Source: a virus. Taken from it: a stretch of 63,526 bases of DNA. The DNA is taken from the IMG/VR virus record IMGVR_UViG_3300024182_000007, positions 1-63,526 of that record, one strand, 5' to 3'. Both the position numbers and the translations under genes were made by a program. Positions 8,300 to 62,572 of the stretch are shown in pieces. Within the stretch, counting starts at the first letter, position 1, and each line of letters starts with the position of its first letter. Below the pieces are notes generated by a model. The model made no database searches and was not told where the DNA came from. It was given only the letters and a program-made list of their open reading frames with translations.

Positions 8300-8327
8300 T
8301 AGTGCGGACCATTCTCTGAGGATGGAC

Positions 8328-12042: not shown

Positions 12043-12923
12043 TAGATGTAATCCTCCATCGCCTTCATAATCCTTTCGGCATCCTCAGCAACTCTCATCC
12101 TCGCGGTATCCTGCTCTCTCAACTCTTCCGCGTCGTAGCTAGTCAGGTTCCGGCGCATATCGGCCGCTATCCGGTCCAGCTCCTTATCTCTAGTGATGTT
12201 GAGACTCGGGAGGATGTCCAACAGTTCAGTGATATTCGTTACCAGGGAGTCTCTGAAAGCCCCTTGCGTCCCGTTCTCCGTTCTGCTGAAGGACTTAAGG
12301 CGTTCGCTCATTTTCTGCGTCACGTCATAACACCTTTTCCATACGTCTCTCATAGCCGAATCAATGACCGCTTGGGTCTGCTCCTGCATTTCCTCCCTGA
12401 TTCGGCGGGTTTCATCGTCCCCTAGAGAGACTCGGAAGTCTGAAGCATCCGGTAACGGCTGTATCAGCGTCGTAAATTCAAACTTACGCGCGATTTGGGA
12501 AGCTGAGGGATAATCGGCCGCGTTGTACAGTCCGTTAAGCTTCCCTTGAGCATCCACTACGTATCTTGGGTAAGCCTGTAGAAAGTGGTTCAACGCGCTA
12601 TCGAACTCCGCCTTGAAGTCAGCTATCTTAGCGGAGTAGTCGAAGTAGCCAGCAGACGACAGAATGCGGTAACCGTCGTCTCTCCAGGGCAAGGTTCTAA
12701 AATAGTGTTCAGTCCTGGCAGCTCCGGCTATCTTCTTTAACTTCTCCAAGGCGTCCTTCGCAACGAGGGACTTGTTATAACGTCCCATCGTGATGTCGGA
12801 GTTGTGGTTGTCTGAGACTTCTTTATCTACTCGTTTATCGTTTTTCTGCGCGGACCACTGGCGGATATTCAGGGATATCAGCATAGCCCGATCGGTGAGC
12901 GAATGCGTTTGTGTGGCGATCAT
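12042..12923 (-). CDS. coiled-coil-rich protein of the MoxR/VWA module
   Basis: The 293-residue protein is mostly helical with charged heptad-like stretches (KIADFKAEFDSALNHFLQAY, and the Arg/Glu-rich last 60 residues). Proteins of this size between MoxR and VWA genes in phages and mobile elements are sometimes assigned to DUF3150; I cannot confirm that here. It may bridge the ATPase and the VWA protein. Confidence 0.65.
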   Translation of the reverse strand: MIATQTHSLTDRAMLISLNIRQWSAQKNDKRVDKEVSDNHNSDITMGRYNKSLVAKDALEKLKKIAGAARTEHYFRTLPWRDDGYRILSSAGYFDYSAKIADFKAEFDSALNHFLQAYPRYVVDAQGKLNGLYNAADYPSASQIARKFEFTTLIQPLPDASDFRVSLGDDETRRIREEMQEQTQAVIDSAMRDVWKRCYDVTQKMSERLKSFSRTENGTQGAFRDSLVTNITELLDILPSLNITRDKELDRIAADMRRNLTSYDAEELREQDTARMRVAEDAERIMKAMEDYI

Positions 12924-12956
12924 AAGTCAATCCTCTTTCCGCCTGAAAAGCAGCGG

Positions 12957-13022
12957 TATATACGCGCGCGCGTATCTATATATAAAGACTCACCCTTAGA
13001 TATAGACGCGCGCGTGCGTATA
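12957..13022. repeat. CG-alternating imperfect inverted repeat in an intergenic gap
   Basis: Two tracts of alternating CG (ACGCGCGCGCGT near 12962-12973 and ACGCGCGCGT near 13006-13015) are flanked by TATA-rich arms in opposite orientation. The element fills the only sizeable gap inside the module, between the MoxR and coiled-coil genes. It could form a hairpin or unusual DNA structure and may regulate the second half of the module. Confidence 0.45.
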
Positions 13023-13032
13023 AATCGGCGCT

Positions 13033-14016
13033 CTAGAAGATGACCTCCTGATGAGCAATGGCCCATTTCGTAAACTCTTTCGTGGTCTGTAAGCTGGAAT
13101 CCCGAGTAATGGCGTCTTTCATCGCGTACACTCCATATTCCTCTTCCATCCGAGCCATATACTTATGTACGCGGCCGATAGTCTTATCGGTCGTCCGTCT
13201 TGCTAAAGCGGCCGATACAGCGAAACAGGCGGAAGGTTCGCTCTTTTTGGGCACTGGAGCGGTGTCGGGATTCAGGAGAATCGCGTCGATACTCGGGAGC
13301 TGAGAGTACATCCGGGCATAGGCGCAATATTCGACGGCCGGACCATCGCCTATCGCCCCCGCGTATAACTCCTGTTGCAGATCGATTGCAGGCTTTAGCG
13401 CCGTTATTCGACTAATGAACTCCCACGTCCGCGGACATGGAAACGCGCGCTGACTCTTGTCATACGCATGTAGCAGGTGAGGGAAGGAGCGGAGAAAGGC
13501 TATCACCATAGGCTGTATATCGTTCTGAACGGCCCATCGGCTCCAATCCTCCAAATCCACCTCGGCAGTCAGGTGTTGGAATCTGGATCTAAGCGCGGAA
13601 TCCATTCTGTTGACTCCGACGCCTTCATCGTTACCGGCCGCTAATACAACCCATCTCTCCGGTAGAATGTATTCTCCTATCCGCCGATCTAAAACCAGCT
13701 GTAAGCAGGCGTTCTGGACTAGCTGAGGAGCGCGATTCAATTCATCCAGAAAGAGAACTCCTTTAGTCTTGGGGTCATGCGGAAGGAACTCCGGCGTACA
13801 CCAGTGAGCCCTTCCATCGCCGTTCACATGCGGAAGACCGCGCAAGTCCACTGGATCTAATAAGACGGCGCGTATGTCGATCAGATCCAGTCCCAGCCGG
13901 TTAGCGGTCTGCGCTACTACCTGAGACTTGCCGATCCCCGGAGGCCCCCATATAAAACACGGCTGTTTCGCGCTAATCAATAGCTCTAGCGCTGAGGTGA
14001 GCTGACTGGGTTTCAT
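13033..14016 (-). CDS. MoxR-family AAA+ ATPase
   Basis: Residues 24-31 are Walker A (GPPGIGKS) and 88-92 are Walker B (LFLDE). A sensor region follows (AAGNDEGVGVNRMDSALRSRF). The start at 14016 forms ATGA with the zinc-ribbon gene; an upstream ATG at 14052 would overlap that gene. MoxR ATPases act with VWA proteins, and one lies downstream in the same operon. The length is usual for the family. Confidence 0.85.
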   Translation of the reverse strand: MKPSQLTSALELLISAKQPCFIWGPPGIGKSQVVAQTANRLGLDLIDIRAVLLDPVDLRGLPHVNGDGRAHWCTPEFLPHDPKTKGVLFLDELNRAPQLVQNACLQLVLDRRIGEYILPERWVVLAAGNDEGVGVNRMDSALRSRFQHLTAEVDLEDWSRWAVQNDIQPMVIAFLRSFPHLLHAYDKSQRAFPCPRTWEFISRITALKPAIDLQQELYAGAIGDGPAVEYCAYARMYSQLPSIDAILLNPDTAPVPKKSEPSACFAVSAALARRTTDKTIGRVHKYMARMEEEYGVYAMKDAITRDSSLQTTKEFTKWAIAHQEVIF

Positions 14017-14165
14017 CGCGTGGCCTCCGTTTTCGGCTTCCGACGGCGCCACGGTGGAACTTCATTACCCTTTGGATACTTATTAGCGTTAGGGCATCCG
14101 CGCTCGTGACACGGTACACCGTTGATAGCCAATATCTGGCATTGGCTACAGTAAAGCTGTCTCAT
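14013..14165 (-). CDS. small zinc-ribbon protein (50 aa)
   Basis: The sequence begins MRQLYCSQC and has CHERGC further on, giving two Cys pairs, followed by a Lys/Arg-rich tail. GGTGAAGAG lies directly before the ATG, as for the next two genes upstream. The stop overlaps the MoxR start as ATGA. Confidence 0.65.
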   Translation of the reverse strand: MRQLYCSQCQILAINGVPCHERGCPNANKYPKGNEVPPWRRRKPKTEATR

Positions 14166-15654: not shown

Positions 15655-16014
15655 ATGAGCGTCGAATCCGTCCAAGCCTATACGGGCGTCACCATCACGC
15701 TGACGACTCACGACACCCGCTATAATCTGCTGACTCTCCTCCGGCTGGTGTCGGCGGACGTCCCTCCAACCTGCCGCGAACTCAATATTCAGTTCGATCC
15801 CGTGCAGGCCGGTGCAGCAGGCTCTCTATTGATCGGCGACGGCCAATGCTCGGACGTGGCGATGGGCGGCCAGCGCTGCTCCCTCATCCTCCTCCCCGGC
15901 CAATCGAATCATTACGGCGCCGGGGCGGACGTCCGCCAGGTCTACATCAACAACATCTTTCTCGTCTCGGATACGATGGACGGCATGCTCGTCAACGTCG
16001 AAGTTCAGAACTAG
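15655..16014 (+). CDS. hypothetical beta-rich protein (119 aa), first rightward gene
   Basis: The protein is rich in beta-strand patterns (VTITLTTHDTRYNLLTLLRL, QVYINNIFLVSDTMDGMLVN) with a Gly-rich loop and two Cys. It resembles small phage head or tail proteins, but no family is recognised. It opens the exported/fibre cassette, 21 bases before the next gene. Confidence 0.6.
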   Translation: MSVESVQAYTGVTITLTTHDTRYNLLTLLRLVSADVPPTCRELNIQFDPVQAGAAGSLLIGDGQCSDVAMGGQRCSLILLPGQSNHYGAGADVRQVYINNIFLVSDTMDGMLVNVEVQN

Positions 16015-16035
16015 CCCGAAAACAGGCCCTTTCTT

Positions 16036-18528
16036 ATGTCCCCTACACTTCGTTTAATCCTCCGCGTAGCGTCTACGTGGCGATATCTTCTTTTCATATT
16101 CATCGTCTGTCCGCATACTTCAATGTATGGCCAGCCGACGTCGGATACGGCGCGCCATATCATCTGGGGGCCTTCTCTCCCCGCGTCATGCCGACCTTCG
16201 ACCGGCGACGTCTTTTTTAAGACTTCCGCCACGGCCGGCCCCTATTACTGCTCCGCGCCGAATACGTGGCTTCCCATCGGAACTGGAGTCGGCGGGTCGG
16301 TGACGAGCGTCGGCTCGGGCTGTGGGATGTCCGGCGGGCCGATAACGACGAGCGGGACTCTCAAGGCGTCCGAACTGGTGCAGATCGTCACTGGAACTCC
16401 CTACAACGTATTGTCGTCGGACTGCGGCAAACTCTTATATCTGAGCAACGCGACAGCTTTAGCAGTATCCATCCCTCAAGCAGGCGGGACATTCCCTAAC
16501 GGCTGGTACGTCGATATCCAGAATCCCGGACCTGGGACGATGACCATAACCCCTACTGTCAGCACGATCGACGGCGCCGCTAATCTGGTTGTCGGCGTCA
16601 ATCAGGGAGTCCGCATAGTCTCAGATGGAGTCAATTACGAGACTCAGAGAGGGGGCGCCGGGTCGTCCGCCGCAAACTCCAGATGCACGTTCACCGCCGC
16701 CTCCACCTGCTCCATCACCGGCCTGACGGGAGTGGCCAATCAAGCCGTCGTCTCCTGCTACGACAATTCCGGGACCTTGACGGAGATCATTCCCAACGAT
16801 TTCGGCGGGACGACCGCCGACACTTTAGTAGTGAATTTCAGCGCGCCGCAGACGGGATATTGCAACGCGAGCACGGGAGTGGGGGCGACGGGCGCAACGG
16901 GCGCCGCAGGGCCTGCGGGTTCTCCCGCCGCGCCAGTCAATAGCGTCCAGATCGACAATGCGGGCGCATTCGGCCCGGCGGCCGTCAACTCCAGCGTCGG
17001 CGTGTTCTGGGATACTGGCTATCCCTCGGTTAACTTCCGCGCTGTAAGCCAACTGTGGACCCTCGAAACCCCAACCGGAGGATTGACGGCCGCCCTGGCA
17101 GGCGCAGGCGCGGGCAATGTCCCTAACGGGGATAGTCTGTATGCGGTCGTCTGCCGCACTACCGTAGGGTTGAGCGACCCGGCAAAGGCTGGCGTCACCG
17201 TGGTCGATCACACTACAAATGGCAAGGTCACCTTGACTCTGCCAACTTGCGACACCGGATCGAGTCAGGGCAAGCGGATTTACCGTACCAAGATCGCCAC
17301 GCCGACAATCTATTACATCCTTGCCAATGTGGCGGTAGGCGCGACAACCTACACCGATAACACAGCCGACTCTGGCCTCGGAGCGCAGTCCTTATTTGAC
17401 TGGTCGCTCAGCGTTCCGATCAACACGAGCTCGGCGATCGTGGAAAACAGCACGGGGATCGATGTCGCGCAGCCTACGAATCTCGGATTCTACATTCCCC
17501 CGGAAAGCGCGCTCATCATGGGCGGAACGGGATTCACTCCTCCCCCTGGATCGGGAGGCGCAATGGCATTGGCTCCCCATACGCCGGGGATCATCGATGG
17601 AGCGGTCGTCGGGGCGTCGGGCGTCAGCGGGAATTGCGCCAAATGGGACTCCACCTCCGGATTGGCGGACAGCGGCGGACCTTGCGGTGGGGCTTCTCCC
17701 GGTGGCGCTGACCTCACCCTTCAGTACCGGATCAACTCTACGACATTCGGAGGGATGAGCGGAACCAGTTGGGATGACACGGCAAGAACGTTTTTGTTGG
17801 TCGATGGGAGCAGTAATCCAATATTTGGATTCAGTGCTGATCCGGCTAATATTGCGCCATTCATCTCTCTAGCTTTTAATCCGAATGGAATTGGTCCCGC
17901 TTCAGTGTCGTCTGGTGATGGCACTGCTGTAAATGATATCACTCTTATTTCTTACAAGGGTGGCGCTACCACGGATGTGGCTGGCAATGGCGGTAATGGT
18001 GGCAATTTGAATTTAATCAGTGGTGGAGGCGCGAATGGAGGAGTTAGCGGGGGTAGCGGCGGCACATTTCAGTTACAAAGCGGTCCAGGTGGTAACGCCT
18101 CTGCTGATGGGGTATCCGCTGGCAATGGCGGGGGGTTTACTATAGCCGCAAGCAATGGCGGACAGGCGACGGGCGCAAATGCTTTCTCTGGAAATGGAGG
18201 AAATGTCAGCATATCGGGTGGTGTTGGCGGAAACGCGGCAGCCTCAATGGGAACCGGGGGAAATGGTGGAAATGTTTATCTGACACCCGGTGATCCTGGA
18301 TCGGGTACGCTCGCGCCGGGGCTCAATGGCAAGGTAATTGTCAATGGAGCCTTTGCCAGCGAACTTGGCTCCTGTACGGCTGCCACTCTTTCCACGATAC
18401 TCACCGCCAATACTGACGTCTGTATGTGTACCGACTGCCAACCGACCAGCGGCTCAGATGATACCTGCACCGGATCGGGAGGGATATGGCTCGCCTACAA
18501 AACGGCTTCTGCGGTGGTGTGCCGATGA
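16036..18528 (+). CDS. exported tail-fibre-like protein with collagen-like and Gly-rich repeats
   Basis: The first 33 residues contain a hydrophobic span (WRYLLFIFIVCP) that looks like a signal peptide. Around residues 285-300 there is a collagen-like run (GATGATGAAGPAGSP). Between about 640 and 750 lie repeated N-x-G-G-N and Gly-rich units, as in parallel helical fibres. The segment PSTGDVFFKTSATAGPYYC has a counterpart in the 19836 gene. The 3' part from about 17760 is richer in A and T than the 5' part, suggesting a mosaic. Possible roles are receptor binding or modifying the cell surface after export. Confidence 0.65.
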   Translation: MSPTLRLILRVASTWRYLLFIFIVCPHTSMYGQPTSDTARHIIWGPSLPASCRPSTGDVFFKTSATAGPYYCSAPNTWLPIGTGVGGSVTSVGSGCGMSGGPITTSGTLKASELVQIVTGTPYNVLSSDCGKLLYLSNATALAVSIPQAGGTFPNGWYVDIQNPGPGTMTITPTVSTIDGAANLVVGVNQGVRIVSDGVNYETQRGGAGSSAANSRCTFTAASTCSITGLTGVANQAVVSCYDNSGTLTEIIPNDFGGTTADTLVVNFSAPQTGYCNASTGVGATGATGAAGPAGSPAAPVNSVQIDNAGAFGPAAVNSSVGVFWDTGYPSVNFRAVSQLWTLETPTGGLTAALAGAGAGNVPNGDSLYAVVCRTTVGLSDPAKAGVTVVDHTTNGKVTLTLPTCDTGSSQGKRIYRTKIATPTIYYILANVAVGATTYTDNTADSGLGAQSLFDWSLSVPINTSSAIVENSTGIDVAQPTNLGFYIPPESALIMGGTGFTPPPGSGGAMALAPHTPGIIDGAVVGASGVSGNCAKWDSTSGLADSGGPCGGASPGGADLTLQYRINSTTFGGMSGTSWDDTARTFLLVDGSSNPIFGFSADPANIAPFISLAFNPNGIGPASVSSGDGTAVNDITLISYKGGATTDVAGNGGNGGNLNLISGGGANGGVSGGSGGTFQLQSGPGGNASADGVSAGNGGGFTIAASNGGQATGANAFSGNGGNVSISGGVGGNAAASMGTGGNGGNVYLTPGDPGSGTLAPGLNGKVIVNGAFASELGSCTAATLSTILTANTDVCMCTDCQPTSGSDDTCTGSGGIWLAYKTASAVVCR

Positions 18529-19049
18529 GACTACTACTGGCTTTGCTACTACCGTTCGTCCTGTGCGCCCAGCAGTCCACACTTCACCGCAATGCCGCAA
18601 ATCCCGGCGCGGTCCCCCAATGGATCAAATGCACCGTTACTAATAACTCGACAAATCTAGTCGTGAGTGGGACCGGCTGCACGGCGGCGACCATCGCCAA
18701 AGCGGGCGGACTTACCCAGACAATTCCGCTCTTTCCATTACTCGCTAATGGCTATGTTCATAACTATGTGCTCAAGACGAGCACGGCATTCGCGGGCACA
18801 ACGTCGCTACTCGGCGGGCTGGGCACCACTGGGACACCTAATCTCTTCCTCATCAGCGCTGTCACCGGATATAACATGAAGACGGCGGTAAGCGCCACGA
18901 ATCTCAGTACAGCCTTACCGTTAGTGGGAGGTAGCGATACGGCGAGCGCCAGTAATGTGGTCCTTCAATTGACAAGCACTATCGATAACCTGACCGCTAT
19001 TTCTGTTGGCGCAATCGATATCTGGGTGCTCTGGTCTGTTAGGCCATAA
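18525..19049 (+). CDS. exported beta-rich protein (174 aa)
   Basis: The start at 18525 forms ATGA with the fibre gene. The N-terminus, MRLLLALLLPFVLCAQQ, is a textbook signal peptide with an AQ-type cleavage region. The rest is Thr/Ser/Gly-rich and beta-like, with one Cys pair. It has the composition of a virion or surface protein. Function is unknown. Confidence 0.65.
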   Translation: MRLLLALLLPFVLCAQQSTLHRNAANPGAVPQWIKCTVTNNSTNLVVSGTGCTAATIAKAGGLTQTIPLFPLLANGYVHNYVLKTSTAFAGTTSLLGGLGTTGTPNLFLISAVTGYNMKTAVSATNLSTALPLVGGSDTASASNVVLQLTSTIDNLTAISVGAIDIWVLWSVRP

Positions 19050-19065
19050 ATAAATCCGTACACGA

Positions 19066-19731
19066 TTACGGCACGGGCTGATATGGCAATGGCGTAGTCC
19101 CCTTATCGATTTGAGATCCCCAAACAAAGAGTACGTTTGAGTCTCCCGCGCTGAAATACGAAACCTGCCCGTTATTGTTGAGTGGCGCAATGCGCGGGAA
19201 AGCGGCAACGAATCGCTGGTGCGGGAATACCGGCTTGATCCCTACGCCTACCCGGTACCAGCCGTTGCCGGCGTCGGCGATGAAGGGGACAACGTTCGAG
19301 GTGTAGCCAGCCGCATTGAAGATCACGCCAGCCGCTAAATCGACGTGAATCTGGCCTAGGTAAGAAGTATTGCCGGAAGGGTCGGGCGCGTTGAGGAAAG
19401 CCTGCAAGTCGATCAGCGCGATGGAGTGGGTTCCGGCCTTCAGGAACACGCTGAAGCAGACGTGGTTCAAGTCGGGGACTGGCAGATTTTGCGGTGTCGT
19501 CTGGCCGTACAGGAAATGGGCGCCAGGATCGGCGCTGGGCGTCACTACATCGTCCAAGCCCTGCGCCATCGAGCCATCCGGGGCAATCGTTGCATTCGGA
19601 TGGACAGCCAGATTGACGAAGGTCCAGTAACCGGAGCTGAAATCCGTACTGGAAATCGGGATGTAATTCACGGTCTTTTGCGGCGACAGCAGTTGGGCGC
19701 TGGCGAAAATAATAAGGCAAGCTGTTTTCAT
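19066..19731 (-). CDS. exported protein with a phage carbohydrate-binding-like jelly-roll domain
   Basis: It lies in reverse among rightward genes. A signal peptide (MKTACLIIFASAQLLS) is followed by a domain with hallmarks of the CBM-like modules often found on phage fibres: APDGSMAQGLDDVV, then VCFSVFLKAGTHSIALIDL, then GNGWYRVGVG, ending WGSQIDKGTTPLPYQPVP. Such modules bind surface glycans. The reversed orientation suggests a separately acquired cassette. Confidence 0.65.
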   Translation of the reverse strand: MKTACLIIFASAQLLSPQKTVNYIPISSTDFSSGYWTFVNLAVHPNATIAPDGSMAQGLDDVVTPSADPGAHFLYGQTTPQNLPVPDLNHVCFSVFLKAGTHSIALIDLQAFLNAPDPSGNTSYLGQIHVDLAAGVIFNAAGYTSNVVPFIADAGNGWYRVGVGIKPVFPHQRFVAAFPRIAPLNNNGQVSYFSAGDSNVLFVWGSQIDKGTTPLPYQPVP

Positions 19732-19835
19732 GCTTCCAAGCTTACTCCAAGCTTACGGCGTCCGTATCGGTTTGTATAGCTACATTTTTTATCCGGAACT
19801 GGTAAACTTGCAGTCGTGCGACCCGCTCTCACCCT
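19732..19835. promoter_or_regulatory. short divergent intergenic region with a 10-bp direct repeat
   Basis: CCAAGCTTAC occurs at 19736 and 19747. AT-rich sequence (near 19777-19793) could hold promoters for the divergent genes at 19731 and 19836, but no strong box pair is clear. Confidence 0.3.
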
Positions 19836-20477
19836 ATGAAGCACCCCATGAAGCCGCTTACAATTGTCGTTCTATCTGTTTTATCTTCCGTATTACTCTA
19901 CGCCCAGGCCGTCACCGGAGGACTGACTTCCAAAGGCCCCGTCGATTCCACCTCCGCGACCTCCACGGCCCCTATCAAATCCGGAACGTCCCTCCCCGGA
20001 ACCTGCTCGGTCGGCCAGCTCTTCTTCAAAACGGACGCCGCCAATACGGGAGTTTTATACGCCTGCACGGCGACGAACACGTTCACCCAACAGACGGGAA
20101 TTCCAGGCGCCCATTCCTTCACTTGTAACATCGGTTCGGCGACTTCCTCAACCGTCATCGCGACCGGCGACACCGGATGCTACTCCGATACGGGAACTCT
20201 CTCCGGCAATATCACCGGCGCGACGATCACCGGAAACGCCGCCGCCCTCGCCACTTGCTCCATCACCGTCGATATATGGAAAGCTAACGCCGCCTATCCC
20301 ACCTCCGGCAATAAGATATCCGCCTCCGCCCCAGTGACTCTCTCTTCCGCCCATACGAACGACGCCGGATCGGTTGGCACTTGGACTCTCCCCGTCGCCG
20401 CTCATGACCGATGGGGGGCGTCCGTCGCCAGCGTCACTGGATGTGTATACGCCACACTGAGGGTGGAGTTCCAATGA
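19836..20477 (+). CDS. exported fibre-like protein (213 aa)
   Basis: A signal peptide (MKPLTIVVLSVLSSVLLYAQ) is followed by a segment like the 16036 protein (GTCSVGQLFFKTDAANTGVL). The rest is a Thr/Ser/Ala-rich beta domain ending in a strand (GCVYATLRVEFQ). ATGs at 19836 and 19848 are both possible. The stop overlaps the next start as ATGA. Confidence 0.65.
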   Translation: MKHPMKPLTIVVLSVLSSVLLYAQAVTGGLTSKGPVDSTSATSTAPIKSGTSLPGTCSVGQLFFKTDAANTGVLYACTATNTFTQQTGIPGAHSFTCNIGSATSSTVIATGDTGCYSDTGTLSGNITGATITGNAAALATCSITVDIWKANAAYPTSGNKISASAPVTLSSAHTNDAGSVGTWTLPVAAHDRWGASVASVTGCVYATLRVEFQ

Positions 20478-21991
20478 GAACCTTCAGAATTTGGCTGCTC
20501 CTGTTCGTTGCGGCCCATGGAGTTGTGCGCCCTGCTAATGCCAATGTCAGTGGCATCGACATCGACGTACGAACTACCGGGAACGATGGCAATGGCGGCG
20601 GTTACGCCAATCAGACACTTACCTCTTCCCAAATCTCGACACCTGCCTGCACTGGAGGAACCGATTTCAGCCAATCAGACACGGCGCACGTGACCTTCAA
20701 CGGAACGACAGTTACGGCTACAACAGTAGGCGCGGGAGCAACCATCACTATCACCGGCTACACCGTTATCACCGGGGATAAGTGCAACGTCTTGCAGATC
20801 ACCGGGGGCGTCAACTACACGGCCAGCTTCTACCTGATAACTTCCGTAAGCACGGGCGCAAACACCTGGACGCTCGATCACAATGTAACCACCGGGGCCG
20901 GAACAGCCATGACCGGGGCTATGGGTGGGGCTCTAGCTACTCCAGCGCAGGCGAACGCCGCCGCAATCGCGCTCGGCACCTACAACCATGTCCACATCAA
21001 GACTGGGACATACACCTTCACAACTACGCCGTTCGCTTATACTTCGCCGCAACCAATTGGCCTAATCGTGGAGGGCTATGGCGCGGCTCACGGCGACATG
21101 GGAACGAAGCCGCTAATCACGACGGCCACCAACTCTATCAAGCTGGCGACCTTCACTTCTTCAAGCGACGGCGCAAAGACATTTCGCAATCTCTCCCTGA
21201 GCAATACAGCCGGAACGCGGGCGGAAGGATTCTTTGCGCCTTCCAGCTTCGGCGCCGCGCTCGTCCTCGACACCTGCATTCTGGACGGGTTTTCCTACGG
21301 CGTTCGCGGCGATCTCAATGTCAGCGAACGCTTTGTCGGGCTGCAAATCATCAACACGGAAATCAAAAACAGCACCGTCACCGGGATACTGAACGATGGC
21401 AACACATATTTATATCTGGCCTACATTCACGACAATACCGGCTATGGATTGGATAACGGCACGCAACATCAGCCCTTTACCTACTGGTCGGTAAATTACT
21501 CGGTTTTTGCCAGCAACACTATCGATGGGATACGTTTCCTTGGCACTTCCGGCCTCGAAAGCATGTCCGTGGATCATAGCGCGTTCTACAAAAACGGGGT
21601 GGCCGGAATTAACTGGTCCTCTCTACTGGGCGGACTGACCCTGACGAATAACGTCTTCGATCAGAACACGACTTTCGGCCTAGGCGGGTCGAATGCGCCT
21701 GCTCCCGGTTTCTTTAACCGTAACAACGCCTACTATCTCAATACGACGGCGGCGCGTTCGCCTAACTGGGCAGGATCGTCTTCCACGGGTGACGTGACGC
21801 TAACCGCCGAACCCTTCACAACTCCGGCGAGCGGCGTGTTTACTGCAAACTCTACGGCAGGCGGCGGCGCAGCGCTCAAGGGCGCGGGATACCCCGGCGC
21901 GTCGATTCTCGGCACGGGCGGCTCGGACATCGGGCCGCTTCAATCCGTCGCTTCGGCAGGAGGCTCTTCCAATTCCGCCTATGTCCAATAG
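20474..21991 (+). CDS. exported right-handed beta-helix protein (tailspike/polysaccharide-lyase-like)
   Basis: The start at 20474 forms ATGA with the preceding gene. A signal peptide (MRTFRIWLLLFVAAHGVV) is followed by about 480 residues of beta-helix-like sequence with repeated N/G/D turns (GLDNGTQHQPFTYWSVNYS, HSAFYKNGVAGINWSSLLGG). The pattern resembles pectate-lyase-fold and phage tailspike proteins. Catalytic residues cannot be assigned by eye. A signal peptide is unusual for a virion tailspike. Confidence 0.65.
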   Translation: MRTFRIWLLLFVAAHGVVRPANANVSGIDIDVRTTGNDGNGGGYANQTLTSSQISTPACTGGTDFSQSDTAHVTFNGTTVTATTVGAGATITITGYTVITGDKCNVLQITGGVNYTASFYLITSVSTGANTWTLDHNVTTGAGTAMTGAMGGALATPAQANAAAIALGTYNHVHIKTGTYTFTTTPFAYTSPQPIGLIVEGYGAAHGDMGTKPLITTATNSIKLATFTSSSDGAKTFRNLSLSNTAGTRAEGFFAPSSFGAALVLDTCILDGFSYGVRGDLNVSERFVGLQIINTEIKNSTVTGILNDGNTYLYLAYIHDNTGYGLDNGTQHQPFTYWSVNYSVFASNTIDGIRFLGTSGLESMSVDHSAFYKNGVAGINWSSLLGGLTLTNNVFDQNTTFGLGGSNAPAPGFFNRNNAYYLNTTAARSPNWAGSSSTGDVTLTAEPFTTPASGVFTANSTAGGGAALKGAGYPGASILGTGGSDIGPLQSVASAGGSSNSAYVQ

Positions 21992-39198: not shown

Positions 39199-39211
39199 TC
39201 GCCTTATATTT

Positions 39212-40247: not shown

Positions 40248-41600
40248 ATGCCTTACACTCACACTACTCTCGCTGCTGCTTTAAGCGCCCTCTCCCTCCG
40301 CCTCGCCGATCCTAACGACGTCTACTGGACGGCGCCCGAAAAGACCGCTTATATAGTCGAAGCTCTAAGGACGTGGCAGGCGCTCACTTCCTTTTATAGG
40401 GACCGGCAGACGTTTAACACGATAGCGAACGTCTCCTTTTATAATCTGACGACCATCCTTCCGGCGGGCGTATTCGATTACAACATCACCGACCGCCAGC
40501 AGATCGCCGTCATGCTCTACCAACTCCTGGAGCGCCAACTCGTGGCGAACGCCTGGAATGGGACCGAACAGTTCAATCTTCCTCAGGTCGTCGGCGCTCT
40601 GGAAAGGAGAAGGGATCAGTTCTTAGCGGATTCGGGATGCGTTATCTCACGCTCCCTTATCGTCAGCGCTCCCAACCCATCCGGAAGAATCCCTCTCCCC
40701 GAAGGAATATCGGATATCCGAAGAGCGGCCTGGGCCAACGGCGCCAACCCTCAAGTCTTCAGCCAAATATGGAGAGACGACGAGTTCGCTATCAACGCCT
40801 ATAAATCCGCTTGGAGGCAGAATCCCGAAGACCCTCCTCTTGCCTATTCCGTCTCTCTGACTCCTCCCGTCTCCCTTCAATTGGCGCCGATACTCTTAAA
40901 CGCCGGTCAGATCGAATTGCTTATCAATCAAGCGGGACCTCCTCTCGACGTCACGGCTGGCGTCCTCCTCTCAGTCCCTGACGATTTCGCCTGGGGAGTG
41001 AAGTGGGGGGCCTTAGGGGATCTGCTCGCTTCAGACGGGCCGGGGAGGGACGTCGAGCGCGCTCAGTACTGCGAATTGAGATACAAGCAGGCCGTCGAGT
41101 TAGCGCAGATTAATCCCTCTATCATGGAGACGGATATCGGGGACGTCCCTCTGGACTCAGGCTCTATATTCGACATGGACGCTTACCGCCCGAACTGGCA
41201 GAACGATAGAGGGCAGCCGGATTACATGGGGATGGCCGGACGCAACCTCCTCGCATTCGCCAATACTCCCGACGCTATCTACGGTGTAGGGATCGATCTC
41301 GCCCGTAATATCCCCGTCCCCGTTCTAGCGGGAGACTTCCTCCAGATCAGCCAGGACATGCTCGACACTCTTTTGGACTACGCCCAGCATATCGCCTGCT
41401 TCAAAATGGGAGGGCAGGACTTCTCCGTGACCTCCCCTCTCTATCAGAATTTCATTAGGATGGCGGGAGAGCAGAACGGACGCATCAGACAAGCGGCTTT
41501 CTATAACGATGCGCTGCGACAACCGGCGCTAAAGATGAGCGGGGAGGTTCCGAGGCTGGACGTTCCGAGGACCGCGCAATATGAGAAGACTCTTACTTAG
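40248..41600 (+). CDS. structural protein of the tail/neck region (450 aa)
   Basis: The N-terminus is helical (TLAAALSALSLRLADPNDVY) and the middle beta-rich (LTPPVSLQLAPILLNAGQIE). A late segment (MLDTLLDYAQHIACFKMGGQ) is followed by a helical end. It lies between adaptor-like and fibre genes and overlaps the next gene by 20 bases. A baseplate or tail-hub-like role is possible but unproved. Confidence 0.5.
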   Translation: MPYTHTTLAAALSALSLRLADPNDVYWTAPEKTAYIVEALRTWQALTSFYRDRQTFNTIANVSFYNLTTILPAGVFDYNITDRQQIAVMLYQLLERQLVANAWNGTEQFNLPQVVGALERRRDQFLADSGCVISRSLIVSAPNPSGRIPLPEGISDIRRAAWANGANPQVFSQIWRDDEFAINAYKSAWRQNPEDPPLAYSVSLTPPVSLQLAPILLNAGQIELLINQAGPPLDVTAGVLLSVPDDFAWGVKWGALGDLLASDGPGRDVERAQYCELRYKQAVELAQINPSIMETDIGDVPLDSGSIFDMDAYRPNWQNDRGQPDYMGMAGRNLLAFANTPDAIYGVGIDLARNIPVPVLAGDFLQISQDMLDTLLDYAQHIACFKMGGQDFSVTSPLYQNFIRMAGEQNGRIRQAAFYNDALRQPALKMSGEVPRLDVPRTAQYEKTLT

Positions 41601-44130
41601 CTCTCTTTTCGTTCTTCTACTTTCGGCGTCCGCTTATGGACGCGAGCGCATGTACGGGATTTGTCAATTGGGGAACCAGACGGCCCTCGTCACGACCGGC
41701 CTCAACACGTCCCCGACGACCCCCTTGATGCGGTCCTACCCCAAATGCACGGTCACGGTCTATCTAACCGGAACTCTCACTCTGGCGACGATCTTCTCCG
41801 ACAATTCCGGGACTCCCAAAGCCAACCCATTCGTCGCGGACTCTTTCGGCTACTGGTTCTTTTACGCCGATAACGGCCGCTACGATGCTAAGTTAAGCGG
41901 CGCGGGCATCCCGGCCCCCTTCACCCTCTCTGATCTGTGGCTGGTCGATCCGGGACAAATCACGACTGGCGTAAGCTCCATCACTGGGACTGCGAATCAG
42001 GTCTGTACAAATGCATCGACGGGAGCAGTCACTCTCTCCATCTGCTCCAGCCCTACTCTCCCTGGAACTACAACGGGTACGTTCGTTGGGAACTTGACGG
42101 GGAACGTCACCGGCAACCTAACGGGTAACGCTTCTACCTCAACGGCTTTCGATCACACTCCGACGAAATGCGCCGCCGGAAGCTATACGATCGGGATAGA
42201 TTCAGGAGGGAACGCGCAAGGATGCACGGTCGCCGGTACTGGGACGGGAGACGTCTCCTCCAACACGGGTGTCTCGGTGGATGGAGAAGACGTTCAGTTC
42301 AGCGGGACTACTGGAAAACTGATCAAGCGGGCTACGGGGAACGGTGTCGTGAGCGAGCTGGCGGGCGTTCATCAGAATACGGATACGTCAACGCCCCTTC
42401 AATATCTGAGAAGTAAGGCTAATCTCGCCGGAGCGCCGAAAACGGAATTCGCCTCTCTCACCTACTCCGTCTCGTCGGACTTCGACTTCCCTCCCCAGAC
42501 CCCCGGCGGAACCCTCACCTCCGGCATCGGCAATACCGTCATCCTCACTCCCTGCCCTCTGGGGATATCCGGGTCCGCTCTCAACACGCGCCTGCTCATC
42601 CAGAACGGCGTGGGAACGGCTGAGTCCGTTCTGATCACCGGAGGCACTTGCACATCGGGACTGACAACGGGAAACGTCATGTTCACGCCCGCCTTCAATC
42701 ATTCCGGGGCCTGGACGATCCAATCTGCCACGTCCGGGATTAAAGAGGCGCTCAACTTCATCCCCGCTGATGGGGGAGTCGTGAGGATGCCGTGCGGACC
42801 TATCAATCTGGCCGCTACGATCGTCTTAGGAGACGGTACTCCCACCACCCGCTCCACCCGCAACTCCATGTCTCTCGTCGGCTGCGGTGGTGGACGTGGA
42901 GTAGACACCGCGTTTCCGGCTACCGGCGCCACCACCCTCCTCTGGACGGGCGCATCCGGCGGGACGATGATCCAGGTCCTCGGTCCCGTCGGAAACGGCA
43001 CTCTCTCCGACTTCATGCTCGACGGCCAAGGGACCGCCGCCCAGACTCTCGATCTCGTCCACGCCTATCACTGGACCTTTAGAAATCTGACCGCCGTGGG
43101 ATGGACCTCTGTAGGCTCCCGCTTAGTAGCTGTAGACTTTGTGTTCCCCGGCATGGTCGAAGGCGCTAACAAGAACCTGTTCGAGAACGTCTTTATCGGC
43201 GCGGGGACGGGAGGGGGAGGATCGGTCGCCTGCCAGTTCGGCCAGTCTGTCCCCAATGTCTCTTCTATTTTCGACGCCGCCCAGAACGTGATGATCAACT
43301 CCATCTGCCGGTCGGACGCCGGGACGGGGATGGAGTTGAGGCTGGCCGATAACAACACTTTCTATAACACGGCGATTCAAGGGGCGACCGGCCTCAAGCT
43401 TACTTCCCCCGTCGCTGGGTTTCCAGGAGCTAACGTCTTCGTACAGTCTCCCCTCGGCGGCGCTACTCCTATCTCGACGTCCGCCGGTTTCGACCTGTCC
43501 ACGACGAACAAGAACGTCTTCCTACCCTTATCGACTACCGACGCCCCGGTAGATCCGCGCACGCTCGTCAAGTTCGCCATAGGATTCGACTTCAGCGGGG
43601 AGTGGTTCGGGATCAACAAATCCCTCCCGCTTCATTACGCCTCCTCCACCTCCCCGGCCGCTATAGCCAATACTAACGCGGAGACGGCCTTTAATCGCCA
43701 CTATCTCATCCCCCAGAACACGCTCAACTTCCTAGGAGGAGTGGGAAGGGTGAAAGCGGCCGGTCGCGTATCCTCCACTGGAACGCCGACGCTTACCTTC
43801 CAGATCAAGCTAGGGGGAGTCCCGATAGGCAAGTTCACTTTCACCGTGGGGAACAACGTGACAAACGACGCCTTCTCCATGGAAACCGATTTCACAGTCG
43901 ATGCTTTAGGAGCTGGCGCTCTATTGGTCGGCCCTTCGATCGGCGTTATGGGGGGATTCTCCGGAGCTTCCACTATCCAAGCCAATCGGGTAGTTGGGCT
44001 TCAGGGGATCACCTGGACGAACGATAACGACCTGACGCTCACCGCTCAATGGTCCGCCGCCTCCGCGTCTAATACCGTCACGTTGGACGGATTCACCCTC
44101 GACATAGAATATCCTGGCCACATTCAATAA
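41581..44130 (+). CDS. fibre/tailspike-like protein with signal peptide (849 aa)
   Basis: MRRLLLSSLFVLLLSASAYG is a signal-peptide-like start. A short head-binding-like domain follows, then repeated GNLTGNVTGNLTGN units near residue 165. A beta-helix-like region (around residues 390-660, rich in Asn/Gly turns) and a beta-sandwich C-terminus complete it. The layout fits a tail fibre or spike, but an N-terminal signal peptide is odd for a virion protein. Confidence 0.65.
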   Translation: MRRLLLSSLFVLLLSASAYGRERMYGICQLGNQTALVTTGLNTSPTTPLMRSYPKCTVTVYLTGTLTLATIFSDNSGTPKANPFVADSFGYWFFYADNGRYDAKLSGAGIPAPFTLSDLWLVDPGQITTGVSSITGTANQVCTNASTGAVTLSICSSPTLPGTTTGTFVGNLTGNVTGNLTGNASTSTAFDHTPTKCAAGSYTIGIDSGGNAQGCTVAGTGTGDVSSNTGVSVDGEDVQFSGTTGKLIKRATGNGVVSELAGVHQNTDTSTPLQYLRSKANLAGAPKTEFASLTYSVSSDFDFPPQTPGGTLTSGIGNTVILTPCPLGISGSALNTRLLIQNGVGTAESVLITGGTCTSGLTTGNVMFTPAFNHSGAWTIQSATSGIKEALNFIPADGGVVRMPCGPINLAATIVLGDGTPTTRSTRNSMSLVGCGGGRGVDTAFPATGATTLLWTGASGGTMIQVLGPVGNGTLSDFMLDGQGTAAQTLDLVHAYHWTFRNLTAVGWTSVGSRLVAVDFVFPGMVEGANKNLFENVFIGAGTGGGGSVACQFGQSVPNVSSIFDAAQNVMINSICRSDAGTGMELRLADNNTFYNTAIQGATGLKLTSPVAGFPGANVFVQSPLGGATPISTSAGFDLSTTNKNVFLPLSTTDAPVDPRTLVKFAIGFDFSGEWFGINKSLPLHYASSTSPAAIANTNAETAFNRHYLIPQNTLNFLGGVGRVKAAGRVSSTGTPTLTFQIKLGGVPIGKFTFTVGNNVTNDAFSMETDFTVDALGAGALLVGPSIGVMGGFSGASTIQANRVVGLQGITWTNDNDLTLTAQWSAASASNTVTLDGFTLDIEYPGHIQ

Positions 44131-44131
44131 A

Positions 44132-47100
44132 ATGCCTGCCTATTCGAGAAAGAGTCAGAAGATGGTCTGCCGGGGGATGAACCTCGACCGCCCTATCGAC
44201 GCTCTAGGCGACGGCGAGTTCGCTTATCTCCAGAACGTGCGCCAGTATAAGGACGGGATCTTAGTCTCCCGCCCCGGCCTCTCCTCAGTCTCTAATTTCC
44301 CTCCCGCTTTCGCCAGCGACTACATCCATTCCTTCCTCACTCTGAACGACGTCAATCCCGATACCCCAGGTACGACTAAACGCTTCATCGGCTATAACGA
44401 ATCCCTCTTCTTCTCCGATCCTACCTTCCCCGCCGTCCCTTCTTTCGTCGATGGAGGGTTCTCCGGCGACCCTCTCTCCATGATCGGGATGTCCCCCATC
44501 TCTAATCCAACCCCGTTCGTCTACGTCTACGACCGCTTCAAGCAGCAGAAATACTCCGACTCGTATCAGGTGGGAGGCGTCCCTTTCTCCTATCCTATCG
44601 GCGTCCCTCAACTTGCCGTCTATCAGGCCGGTCCCCCCGTCCCAGTGATCGCCGCCGGAGATATAACGGGCACGGGATATTCCTGGCGCTGGCAACTGAG
44701 GCATACGCCTACCGGCGCTAAATCAATCCCCGGCGTCCCCACGTTCACGCCCGTCGATCTCGCTACTCAGCAAGTGACATTCGCCGATCCGGCCATCCAT
44801 ATCGCCGGGACTCTCGCTAAGGATCAAGAGTATACGTGGGATCTTTACCGGTTCGGCGGGACGATCAACGCCTGGTCTCTTATAGGCTCCGTCGTCAACC
44901 GCTCCGGCCTGACGATCGTCGATGATTTCTCCGACATAGATATAGCTTCAGCCCCTACCCTCCCCGTCGATGATAGATCGATCCTCTATCAGTCCTGGCT
45001 CATCCCCGACACTCCCGCCGCCGGATTTACTACCTCTACTACCGCTGCGGTCCCCACTTCTTCAGGCGTCGGAGGGAACGGATCGAGAGTGACGGACGCC
45101 GCTCTAGGCTTCAATCTCTCCTGGATACCGGGGACTCAGATCGTCATCGACGGAAACGCTTATACGATCGCCCGCGTTCTCGGAACCGGCGACCTATTCC
45201 TAAACGAGGATCTCGGCGGGAATCTGGGGATCGTCTCCTGGCATGTAGACGGGGCGCTCCAGACAGGCCAGCCCCTCCCCTTCGTCTGGGGTCCTTTCGG
45301 CTCCGGCCAGTTCGGGCTCTATTTATTCGCCTGTGGCGATCCCCGCTCCCCCGGAACAGTCTACTGGACGAATGGCAACGATCCCGACTCCGTATCTATC
45401 GCTAATTCCCTCGAACTAACGTCCTCATCCGAGCCTCTTCAAAACGGCTGCATCTGGAACGGCCGCGTCTGGGTCTGGTCTACCGAGCGCATGTTCGAGA
45501 TGGTCCCCGACCTAATCAATGCAGGCCAGTTCCTCGCCCAAGTAGTTCCCGGCGCGCGCGGATTAGCCGGAAACTGGTGCTTTTGCGTAGGCGACCTCAT
45601 CTACTTTAAGTCTCGCGACGGGATATTCTCGTTCGGCGGCGGCGGCCTCCCCACCTCCCTCACCGACATTCAACTCTACGAATTCTTGGGCCACGATGGC
45701 CAGAACGGATTCGGAGCGACCATCCCCAACCCAGAGAACTTCGGCGCTCCCGTCACTATCAATCCGCCCGATCCCAACCGCTTCCCCCAGCAGCGCCTAT
45801 TCTGGTCGGACGGCGTTTTATATTTCGATTTCGTCGATACCCTCAACTTCCCCGACACTCTCCTCTTCGATACTCATTTGATGAAAGGCTGGGCTAGAGA
45901 CGTCTATCCTTCTCAGGGGTATCGGGCGCATTATTCGGAATTGGGCTTTCACACGACGTTCGTAGCCGACGGACACACCCTCGACTGGCTGACCGGCGAC
46001 GACGATCTAGGCTCTCCGATCGAATGCTCGATCATGACGGGCGCCGATCTGTTAGGAGATATCCGCACGTCTAAGCTCATTGGAGACGCCGTAGTAGGAG
46101 CTATCCCCAACGTCACCCTCATCTCCGCTAAAATCCTCGGCGATCGAAACGCAACAGTTCTCGCCTCGGGAAATCTAGTTCCGAGCGGCGTCTACCAGCA
46201 GACTATCCTCACCGTCAACAACGCCGTTATCAACGCCGGTCTCAACTCCTTCTCCCAGACCGTCGGACTCTGGTGCCACTGGTCCTCGACCGAACGCACC
46301 GAACTCTGGGACTGGGAGCCCTCCTGGGTAGGCAAACCGGAGCGCATTATCGGACGGGCGACGGATTGGACCGACGATGGATTAGCCGGGGCCAAATACT
46401 TAAAGGGGGTAATCATCGAAGCGGCCATATCCCAGGTTGCAACGGGATTCGATCTTACTGTAGATCTAGCGGACGCCCAGCTAGTTTCGTCGGCTTCTTA
46501 CGCTTTCCAGCCAACGGACGTCGGCGCCATCCTCTCCATCACTCAACCTGTCAACGGCTTCGTCATGGGACAAGCTACGATTACGGGAGTCGTCGCCGGT
46601 AAAGCCCAGATCGACCACCCCGTAGCCCCTCTGGCTTCCGCTGGCGGACAGTTCACCGTCTCGGGATCGCGTTCCGTCATCATCCAGACCGACGGAGGGA
46701 TAGACGCGCAAGGGATAACTCTAGCCGCCATCCAGCAGTCCGAGTACGCCTACTTCATCACCCCCATAATCGCCCATGAGATGCGATTGGTCCCGTTCGA
46801 TCAGAAGACCTGCCAAATATTCAGTGTCCGCTGGCTCTGGGACCCTTACCCTGAATACCTCAATATCAAAGAGGATTTCTATCTGGAGCAGTGGCCGAGC
46901 GTCAAATATATAAGAGGGGTGCAGATCGAAGGGGATACGCAAGGGGCGTCAGTTGGCTTCAATATCGAGTTCGACGGGCAGTTAGGGCCGGGATTGGCGA
47001 TCGTCCAAAACGGGAAAACTCTCACTGAAATCGGGTTCGCCGTACCCTTCAACGCCAAAGAAATAAGATTGATCCCTCTCGGCCACTGGCGCCGTCATTC

Positions 47101-48067
47101 CGTCAAGTGGATCTACGACAACTATCCTCCCTTCGCCGAACTAATCACTGCATGGGAGGACTGCGGCGCTCCGGGAGATAAGTACATGCGTGGCGGCGTC
47201 CTCAGACTGGAGACGGGAAACGCCAACGTCACTCTCGCGCTGAAAAACGACAAAGGCATCCAGCTTACCGCGATCAGTTTGACCGCCAACGGCCAGCGCG
47301 AGTTCCCCTTCGTCGTCGAGCCCCCCGTCGTCTCCCATCTCGTCCGCTGGGAGCCTCAACCCGGCCAGCGGTGGGGGTACTTTCGGACGCGCTGGGACTT
47401 CGACCCTTACCCTGAGATCTATTTCGAGCGCACTCCCATCATCGAACTGGGGACTCCGGGGGCTAAATTCATGCAGGGAATCAAGCTCACCGCTGATTCC
47501 GGCGGATTCCCAGCGTCGGTAGATATCATCGCCGACGGGGATATCGTCGCCCTCACCCTCCCCCCAACCGTCTGGTCCGGAAAGCAGACGATCCCCTTCT
47601 CCTTCCCCGTCCCCTTCATCGCCCATAATCTCCAGTTGCGCCCCAAGAACATCCTCCGCATCTTCCTCCCCGAAACGGACTGGGTGTGGGAGCCCGCTCC
47701 CGATCTAGCCTCCAACTGGATAACTCAAGGGACTTCTTACGGCTTGCAGGGCTTCATCCATCACCGGGACGCTTACATAGCCATCTCCGAAGCCGCCTCC
47801 GACATCACTCTGACGATCACGATGGACGACGGAATCGCTTATGGATACGTCATCCCGGCGACCGTCGGCATCATGATGCGAAAGAAATACGTCGTCCTTC
47901 AGAATATGAAGGGGAAACTAGCGCAATATTCAGCCGTCAGTCCGACGCCATTCAGACTCTACGTGAGAGATCTGGAGATAAAAATCAAGAGTTGGGGCTC
48001 TACGGGTCCATTCATAAGCATGCGTCCGTTCGGCGACAACAGTTTCGCTATGGGAGCCCGCCTCTAG
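44132..48067 (+). CDS. very large tail nozzle-like protein (1311 aa)
   Basis: The N-terminus (RGMNLDRPIDALGDGEFAYL, then SRPGLSSVSNF) has the look of beta-propeller tail or stabilisation proteins of podoviruses. The central part repeats Gly/Trp/Asp beta blades. From about residue 720 there are four or five repeats with W-D-x-x-P/Y-P-E motifs (RWLWDPYPEYLN, RWDFDPYPEIYF, KWIYDNYPPFAE). It would form the tail tube end through which DNA exits. Confidence 0.6.
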   Translation: MPAYSRKSQKMVCRGMNLDRPIDALGDGEFAYLQNVRQYKDGILVSRPGLSSVSNFPPAFASDYIHSFLTLNDVNPDTPGTTKRFIGYNESLFFSDPTFPAVPSFVDGGFSGDPLSMIGMSPISNPTPFVYVYDRFKQQKYSDSYQVGGVPFSYPIGVPQLAVYQAGPPVPVIAAGDITGTGYSWRWQLRHTPTGAKSIPGVPTFTPVDLATQQVTFADPAIHIAGTLAKDQEYTWDLYRFGGTINAWSLIGSVVNRSGLTIVDDFSDIDIASAPTLPVDDRSILYQSWLIPDTPAAGFTTSTTAAVPTSSGVGGNGSRVTDAALGFNLSWIPGTQIVIDGNAYTIARVLGTGDLFLNEDLGGNLGIVSWHVDGALQTGQPLPFVWGPFGSGQFGLYLFACGDPRSPGTVYWTNGNDPDSVSIANSLELTSSSEPLQNGCIWNGRVWVWSTERMFEMVPDLINAGQFLAQVVPGARGLAGNWCFCVGDLIYFKSRDGIFSFGGGGLPTSLTDIQLYEFLGHDGQNGFGATIPNPENFGAPVTINPPDPNRFPQQRLFWSDGVLYFDFVDTLNFPDTLLFDTHLMKGWARDVYPSQGYRAHYSELGFHTTFVADGHTLDWLTGDDDLGSPIECSIMTGADLLGDIRTSKLIGDAVVGAIPNVTLISAKILGDRNATVLASGNLVPSGVYQQTILTVNNAVINAGLNSFSQTVGLWCHWSSTERTELWDWEPSWVGKPERIIGRATDWTDDGLAGAKYLKGVIIEAAISQVATGFDLTVDLADAQLVSSASYAFQPTDVGAILSITQPVNGFVMGQATITGVVAGKAQIDHPVAPLASAGGQFTVSGSRSVIIQTDGGIDAQGITLAAIQQSEYAYFITPIIAHEMRLVPFDQKTCQIFSVRWLWDPYPEYLNIKEDFYLEQWPSVKYIRGVQIEGDTQGASVGFNIEFDGQLGPGLAIVQNGKTLTEIGFAVPFNAKEIRLIPLGHWRRHSVKWIYDNYPPFAELITAWEDCGAPGDKYMRGGVLRLETGNANVTLALKNDKGIQLTAISLTANGQREFPFVVEPPVVSHLVRWEPQPGQRWGYFRTRWDFDPYPEIYFERTPIIELGTPGAKFMQGIKLTADSGGFPASVDIIADGDIVALTLPPTVWSGKQTIPFSFPVPFIAHNLQLRPKNILRIFLPETDWVWEPAPDLASNWITQGTSYGLQGFIHHRDAYIAISEAASDITLTITMDDGIAYGYVIPATVGIMMRKKYVVLQNMKGKLAQYSAVSPTPFRLYVRDLEIKIKSWGSTGPFISMRPFGDNSFAMGARL

Positions 48068-60977: not shown

Positions 60978-61814
60978 CTATTCCCAATCCTCCGGCGACG
61001 AATCCGGGTATATCAGCATGGCAAGCATCTGAAACGTAATTTGATCGTCCTCCAAAACCTGTTCCTCCCCGACCATCGAAGCGTTTGCTTGACACTGATT
61101 TATCGTAACATAAAAGGGCTTCCATCCCTCTTTATTCTTCTTCCCCCGGTAATGCCTGATCTCCACGTTGACGTGATACCCGATCTCCCCGAACCCCTTG
61201 CTCCTCGACTCATTGGTCGGCTGGTCGTTCTTCCATATGGCCTTCTCCTTGTGCGTAATCAGCAGGTGCTTCCCCGACACGGCGTTCAAAAAGTCGATCA
61301 TCTCCTGGTTATACATGCCCCTGTCCCTGGGCATGATCTTCTGATTTCGCCCGTAGCACGCATATAGAACATCCTCGGAGAGTTGAGAGCCCGTATCAAT
61401 CACAATACTCTTGCATTTCTTCTCCGGCATTTCGGCGAACTTAAACGCGGCTTCCTTGATCCTGTTCACATGCCACCGATAAAAGTGCATGCTGCAACAA
61501 TCGGGCATCTCGCTCCCGAATACCGGCTTCTTGAACTTGCCGCAGTCGTCGGGAAGCATCGCCAGTTGCATGGGATTCCCCACCCTTATCAAATCCTCCT
61601 TGGGCATGATGATCTTCTTCCCCATCTCCATCGCCGTCTTTCCGATGGTCGCCCGTGTCTTCCGATCCAGCGCCACTACGCCTATCGGAGAAGGAAAGGT
61701 AGCCGCGAAATGCGTCTTCCCCGATCCCTGCTCCCCTCTGCTGGACACCGACAACTTATCCTGCTCGCCGCCGGTCAGCTCCACGAACTCGATCGGATGG
61801 GCGACCTCCTTCAT
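60978..61814 (-). CDS. RecA-like/Sak4-type recombinase ATPase
   Basis: Residues 27-35 (GEQGSGKTH) are Walker A and 137-144 (IVIDTGSQ) are Walker B. A conserved LLITHKEKAIW segment resembles the RecA-core strand 4 region. The size and neighbourhood (a PD-(D/E)XK nuclease and a possible ssDNA-binding gene) fit the Sak4 group of phage single-strand annealing or recombination ATPases. ATGA overlaps the cohesin-like gene. Confidence 0.75.
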   Translation of the reverse strand: MKEVAHPIEFVELTGGEQDKLSVSSRGEQGSGKTHFAATFPSPIGVVALDRKTRATIGKTAMEMGKKIIMPKEDLIRVGNPMQLAMLPDDCGKFKKPVFGSEMPDCCSMHFYRWHVNRIKEAAFKFAEMPEKKCKSIVIDTGSQLSEDVLYACYGRNQKIMPRDRGMYNQEMIDFLNAVSGKHLLITHKEKAIWKNDQPTNESRSKGFGEIGYHVNVEIRHYRGKKNKEGWKPFYVTINQCQANASMVGEEQVLEDDQITFQMLAMLIYPDSSPEDWE

Positions 61815-62572
61815 CTACACCGCCTCCCACTGGCCGTAAAATTCAGCGTGACTGACGCATTACTCAACGTCACCGCCTGACTGAACGGCGTAAACGAGCA
61901 CCGGCTCTTACTCGGCGTCACCACATAATTCCCCGCCGCTAATCCATTAAACGAATAAATCCCCGAGGGAGGCGTGATCATATTGGCCTGCGCCGCCCCG
62001 CTCAACCTCACGTTCGCCCCTCCCACTCCCACCGCCCCGGATATATTCCAGACGGTCGGCGGAGGGGGAGGGGGAGAAGCGGATATCGATACCGTCCCGC
62101 CCGATCCACCCGAACTGATGTATCTCCCCGCCGCGTCCGAAACCGTAACCCCCGTCACCGCTAGCGTGTCGATCTTCGGCCCCGGACCAGGCGCTATCCC
62201 CTGCGCTATCTGATACCGGATCGTCCCCAATAATCCGTTAGGGATGACATTTGAATTAGGAGGAGAGATTCCCGCTACCACGCAGACGGTCAGCCCCGTT
62301 TTCAGAGAGCAAGTGAGCGTCTTCCCGGCCGCCGTCACGCTCCCGCCTGGAGTAATCAGCCCTTGGGCGGTCGATAGATCGGAGAAGGGATGCGTCACCG
62401 TAAAGTTGAGCGCCGACGGCTGCGCTCCGCCCGTCGATGCCAATGAAACGCTTATATCTACCGTCCCCCCTGGAATCCCGCTTCCAGATCCAAGGGCGAT
62501 CGTCGCCGTCTGCGCCCCTGCCCATTTCAGACTCAGTCCGATTAGCGAACAGATAACCAATCGCAGTGTCAT
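61811..62572 (-). CDS. exported cohesin-like protein inside the recombination operon
   Basis: The start at 62572 forms ATGA with the nuclease gene, and its stop forms ATGA with the Sak4-like gene. MTLRLVICSLIGLSLKWAGAQ is a signal peptide. A cohesin-like beta sandwich follows (SIPGGTVDISVSLASTGG is the approximate region, with ALNFTVTHPF). Then come a Pro-rich linker (PPPPPP) and a carboxypeptidase-regulatory-like beta domain (GIYSFNGLAAGNYVVTPSKS). It is probably secreted. It is out of place among DNA-processing genes. Confidence 0.65.
   Translation of the reverse strand: MTLRLVICSLIGLSLKWAGAQTATIALGSGSGIPGGTVDISVSLASTGGAQPSALNFTVTHPFSDLSTAQGLITPGGSVTAAGKTLTCSLKTGLTVCVVAGISPPNSNVIPNGLLGTIRYQIAQGIAPGPGPKIDTLAVTGVTVSDAAGRYISSGGSGGTVSISASPPPPPPTVWNISGAVGVGGANVRLSGAAQANMITPPSGIYSFNGLAAGNYVVTPSKSRCSFTPFSQAVTLSNASVTLNFTASGRRCR

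Follow-up and report, generated by a model that had tools for sequence, protein, structure and literature searches.

The accepted view is that tailed phages assemble their virions in the cytoplasm, and the known podophage tailspikes with a head-binding domain are made there. Among phage proteins that use the Sec pathway are certain endolysins, such as the fOg44 lysin, a phage protein cited in PMC8878798 as having a bona fide signal peptide (SP), but these are lysis enzymes and not spikes. Gp38 of vB_EcoM_SD286 is reported to have no SP (PMC12946066). Tunturi 1, a cultivated podovirus of Acidobacteriota, is described in a paper whose main text mentions neither mass spectrometry nor signal peptides (PMC11924767). 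In the open-access literature we searched, no report of exported phage tailspikes was found.

The window analysed here is the entire 63,526-base stretch of IMG/VR virus record IMGVR_UViG_3300024182_000007. It is podovirus-like, and its terminase, portal, major capsid, tail and structural proteins share 28-31% identity with those of Tunturiibacter phage Tunturi 1. By kinship with Tunturi, the host would be a member of the Acidobacteriota; a capsid-protein scan of genome contigs for host assignment returned no relative. The terminase is matched by PHROG terminase models, while a PF03237 search of the window gave no match. Other genes include a helicase with an internal LAGLIDADG-like, intein-like insert (961-3468, minus strand), a ParB-like protein (4948-6009, minus), an AAA/MoxR-like ATPase (10631-14052, minus) with a DUF2201 putative metallopeptidase/VWA-like partner nearby, and LAGLIDADG-type endonuclease genes between virion genes (34365-34946 and 39131-39931, plus). 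A tyrosine integrase, split over two reading frames (7970-8903, minus), points to a temperate lifestyle, present or ancestral, or to a frameshift.

An earlier note, made from these letters, had proposed that six proteins of the window carry Sec signal peptides, and the open reading frames it named are all present. We called SPs with a home-made rule-based Sec/SPase-I scorer, not SignalP, at a threshold of 8, which 14 of 16 known exported E. coli proteins pass and which none of 47 cytosolic proteins (maximum 7.7) and none of the tested T7 proteins reach. On this scale the proposal stands for four of the six, namely 19836 (score 10.2, MKHPMKPLTIVVLSVLSSVLLYAQA), 41581 (9.9, MRRLLLSSLFVLLLSASA), 20474 (8.7, MRTFRIWLLLFVAAHGVVRPANA) and 18525 (8.2, MRLLLALLLPFVLCA), in each of which, as in 61811 reverse, the scorer finds n-, h- and c-regions and an AXA-like site. 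The protein at 16036 is borderline at 7.3, with a long n-region, a ribosome site that is not clear and an uncertain start, and for 19731 reverse, which scores 3.7, an SP is unsupported. Absent from the note's list was 61811 reverse (61811..62572, minus), a predicted exported protein of 253 aa outside the cassette described below, with an SP at aa 1-20 (score 8.5) and 4 cysteines; it has weak CarboxypepD_reg similarity (Pfam E 8.5e-7, under the curated cut-off). The start codons of 18525 and 20474 are supported by their ATGA overlaps with the stop of the preceding gene.

To place these calls in context, related loci were gathered via the spike domain, the neighbouring structural protein and the capsid protein, and proteins were classed as fibre-like by a composition rule (charged residues <14%, G+S+T+N >32%) that is not a functional call. 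Among fibre-like proteins of at least 150 aa, 78 of 231 (34%) passed the SP scorer, compared with 10 of 656 others (1.5%; Fisher p 2e-39), and the contrast per sequence cluster was 40% versus 5%. Internal pseudo-starts inside fibre-like proteins pass at a rate of only 0.16-0.45%, against 34% for the real starts, and SPs on fibre-like proteins thus exceed chance. The starts themselves are credible because they are closely coupled to upstream stops: where an SP-bearing fibre gene has a co-directional upstream gene, it starts -30 to +40 bases from the stop of that gene in 94 of 104 cases, 33 of these 94 being -4 or -1 overlaps, although the counts include some mutually overlapping loci. Tunturi 1 and 2 contain a run of spike-like ORFs, ORF12-ORF17, five with an SP at the depositors' own starts, one scoring 7.3, and their long spike ORFs have 20, 10, 20 and 32-34 cysteines in the mature chains. 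The fibres of Tunturi 3, a phage of the same host strain, are SP-less and cysteine-poor, so the trait is not a host-wide bias. Judged from the sequences, then, the general proposal that tail-fibre-like proteins here carry signal peptides is borne out, and these SPs are real and conserved in this phage family.

Exported bacterial proteins favour even numbers of cysteines (PMC7678975), and since the scorer takes no account of how many cysteines the mature chain holds, cysteine parity is independent support for extracytoplasmic folding. In the export test (INDEPENDENTLY), SP-bearing fibres with even, odd and zero cysteine counts numbered 61, 17 and 0 respectively; taken one per cluster, the ratio of even to odd was about 33:8, or about 80% even, with a median p of 5.6e-5, a value limited, like the other p-values, by the relatedness of the sequences. 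The corresponding counts for SP-less fibre-like proteins were 63 even, 53 odd and 37 cysteine-free (per cluster about 27:24:10), and the even-cysteine bias is confined to the SP-bearing fibres. Cysteine density also differs, at 1.7 per 100 aa in SP-bearing fibres versus 0.9 in SP-less ones. A regular expression for a common cysteine module was tried and proved not to be specific to SP proteins. Overall, export of the spike- and fibre-like proteins with disulfide bonding is well supported by these statistics, and we consider it highly probable.

A protein that would connect export with the virion is 41581 (41581..44130, plus strand), a predicted tail spike or fibre of 849 aa in which an SP (aa 1-18, 41581..41634) is followed directly by a head-binding, or virion-attachment, domain (about aa 19-125, 41635..41955) and a long fibre-like body, with 12 cysteines in the mature chain. 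The approximately 107 residues behind the SP are conserved in alignments of relatives, and include a conserved cysteine pair, Cys28 (41662-41664) and Cys56 (41746-41748). The domain assignment is based on these alignments, a fold search and a profile match. Using an AlphaFold model (pLDDT 84.9), the top four VIA-align rows for the domain were podophage tailspikes or tailspike-bearing complexes, and the top three Foldseek matches were Pan3 and Pam1. Z-scores against the tailspike head-binding domains of Pan3, Pam1, Sf6 and P22 were 8.9, 8.5, 7.4 and 7.3; these values are modest, yet the best-ranked rows are consistent with one another. The family profile of the domain matched the Pan3 and Pam1 tailspikes with E values of 0.014 and 0.032, respectively. 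Phages of Serratia, Escherichia, Erwinia, Idiomarinaceae and Pantoea encode sequence homologues, for which tailspike or tail protein is a frequent annotation. The gene sits between homologues of Tunturi 1 tail and virion genes. Upstream, and overlapping the 41581 reading frame up to position 41600, is a 450-aa structural protein conserved in the family (40248..41600, plus; 41% identity to related locus L001 and 28% to Tunturi 1). Downstream is a 1311-aa homologue of an annotated Tunturi 1 virion structural protein (44132..48067, plus), which is a candidate tail hub or nozzle for spike binding. Because a tailspike head-binding domain follows directly after its SP, 41581 is most likely the phage's own spike.

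Within the family, the SP and the cysteine pair occur together. Of 32 distinct members with the spike domain, 28 have an SP (23 scoring at least 8 and five 6.6-7.6), and 25 of these 28 have both cysteines of the pair, the other three having one. The SP-less members (L019, L040, L061 and the truncated L026) have the pair in none of four cases, and ten outside homologues, including KT1, begin with the domain itself and lack both the SP and the pair. The SP-less relatives start at the position where the mature chain of 41581 is predicted to start. The association gives a Fisher p of 1e-3 within the family and 1e-8 with the outsiders, relatedness not being removed in either case. On a tree of the capsid protein, the SP-less members require four separate changes, forced by well-supported branches, and spike genes may have been exchanged between phages.

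These patterns bear on a reading in which the hydrophobic N-termini are unused for export or stay uncleaved, and the proteins, folded in the cytoplasm, take the usual assembly route. Cleavage is a prediction, 16036 and 19731 reverse fall under the threshold and SP-less orthologous spikes exist, all of which would fit cytoplasmic folding. However, it leaves the even-cysteine bias and the joint presence or absence of SP and cysteine pair unexplained, and the SP scores are on a par with those of E. coli proteins known to be exported; we therefore regard it as improbable. In two of the SP-less cases, L040 and L061, the head-binding spike has no SP, yet other SP-bearing fibre-like proteins are encoded elsewhere in the genome. 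Since such phages keep an SP-less spike together with SP-bearing fibres, export is not needed for a head-binding spike to work, a point against the mechanism favoured below, and export-assembly of spikes and action at the cell surface may both occur.

The other five proteins named in the note lie in a cassette at 15655-21991. It is headed by a 119-aa protein without an SP (15655..16014, plus), homologues of which lead SP cassettes adjoining tail genes in L001 and L024 (phmmer E 9.5e-6 and 1.5e-11), indicating that the cassette is a recurrent module. This is followed by an 830-aa fibre-like protein with a borderline SP at aa 1-32 and a small fibre motif common to other phage fibres (16036..18528, plus); a 174-aa predicted exported protein with an SP at aa 1-15 and 2 cysteines in the mature chain (18525..19049, plus); a 221-aa protein with a CBM-like phage tail domain (19066..19731, minus); a 213-aa predicted exported fibre-like protein with an SP at aa 1-25 and 6 cysteines (19836..20477, plus); and a 505-aa predicted exported repeat-rich protein with an SP at aa 1-23 and 3 cysteines (20474..21991, plus). 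Fibre, CBM and beta-helix domains had been attributed to the five named proteins and to 41581. The attribution is upheld by the head-binding fold of 41581 and by 19731 reverse, which matches the tail protein family phrog_5939 (E 2.8e-10) and has homologues annotated as tail or structural proteins, its CBM-like domain being found inside tail proteins of other phages. It finds no backing for 16036, 18525, 19836 and 20474, for which Pfam and PHROG gave no convincing family (best E 0.05), and calling 20474 a "beta-helix" is still an interpretation of its sequence. No relatives of 16036, 19836 or 20474 were found in cultivated phages, nor any of 20474 in viral contigs, and scans of the cassette for promoters and terminators gave chance-level results. 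The SP-bearing cassette proteins were found to have no attachment domain in common with 41581. The most likely role of the cassette is to provide additional exported parts of spikes or adhesins, or accessory enzymes.

It is above all for this cassette, because its proteins show no head-binding domain, that a role in decorating or modifying the infected cell may apply. The main rival to late spike attachment is that the exported fibres are not virion parts but work on the infected cell's envelope or surroundings, for example by masking receptors, by preventing superinfection or by cutting back surface glycans so that progeny can leave. Exported proteins of this kind are known from bacteria, in the MAT superfamily of Bdellovibrio, which are tail-fibre-like trimers active at the cell surface (PMC10769870), and in Pantoea WceF, a tailspike-like glycan-modifying enzyme (PMC7949094); Ig-like or F5/8-type domains in some relatives point the same way. 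The 41581 spike, on the other hand, has a virion-attachment domain and is placed among tail genes, its SP-less relatives occupy the same gene place, and a Pfam scan of ten proteins revealed no outer-membrane anchor domain. Envelope action as the whole explanation thus seems unlikely, though it is the rival to be taken most seriously.

Part of the set could also be host-captured cargo (morons), expressed in lysogeny to alter the host surface and unrelated to the virion. The two-frame integrase and ParB of the window, the resemblance of 61811 reverse to bacterial exported proteins and the putative Ig domains of one relative are consistent with such cargo. A host origin was considered for the spike domain and rejected, as no relative was found among 84,980 species genomes at the sensitivity of that scan. 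Moreover, the head gene of the cassette is found again with SP cassettes beside tail genes in L001 and L024, and a comparable run of SP-bearing genes lies within the tail genes of Tunturi 1, making the moron explanation, in our view, quite unlikely.

Of the roles suggested in the earlier note, particle assembly outside the cytoplasm is the better supported for the spike, because 41581 keeps its head-binding domain behind the SP, with the meeting of spike and virion being the conjectural part. In the mechanism we favour, several tail-spike- and fibre-like proteins would be made as Sec precursors that cross the inner membrane, where the SP would be cleaved and disulfides formed in the periplasm, as the sequence statistics support. 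The 41581 spike would then wait in the periplasm and be joined to the tail hub once lysis exposes virions to it, which would place the final step of virion assembly outside the cytoplasm. The SPs, cysteine statistics, head-binding fold and gene position are supported by the sequence, and from them we infer cleavage, periplasmic disulfides and attachment to the hub. Late attachment is mechanically plausible in the light of a 1967 work cited in PMC2989905, and periplasmic maturation followed by hub attachment at or after lysis is the most likely mechanism, for which we see roughly even chances. The broader proposition, that soil podophages of a large family complete their virions outside the cytoplasm by plugging Sec-exported, periplasm-disulfide-bonded spikes onto tail hubs at or after lysis, is more tentative and falls somewhat short of that. 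If true, a spike that combines an export signal with a virion-attachment domain would depart from cytoplasmic virion building, exported spikes would account for cysteine-rich spikes, and the host secretion pathway would be used for receptor-binding proteins. The system is directly testable, as a cultivated Acidobacteriota host supports the growth of Tunturi 1 and 2, and Tunturi 3, with its SP-less fibres, offers a natural control on the same strain.

Compared with known systems, 41581 resembles the podophage tailspikes (P22 gp9, Sf6 gp14, Pam1 and Pan3) in the fold of its attachment domain, its podovirus-like genome and its place among tail genes. It departs from their cytoplasmic manufacture and attachment in its high-scoring SP and conserved cysteine pair, neither of which is present in the homologous tailspikes checked. 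Tunturi 1 and 2 are like the window in their homologous head, portal, terminase and tail genes, as well as in having a head-binding domain and a multi-gene SP-bearing spike run, but protein identity is only about 30%. The Bdellovibrio MAT fibres share with 41581 the order of an SP, a beta-rich domain (of ~130 aa in MAT) and a long fibre, but are bacterial and surface displayed; going by their description, they are further set apart in that no PDB structural homologue was reported for the MAT N-terminal domain, whereas the 41581 domain resembles head-binding domains (PMC10769870). Pantoea WceF is exported and has a tailspike-like fold, as proposed here for the phage proteins, but it is the product of a bacterial gene, carries a Tat signal and modifies biofilm glycans (PMC7949094).
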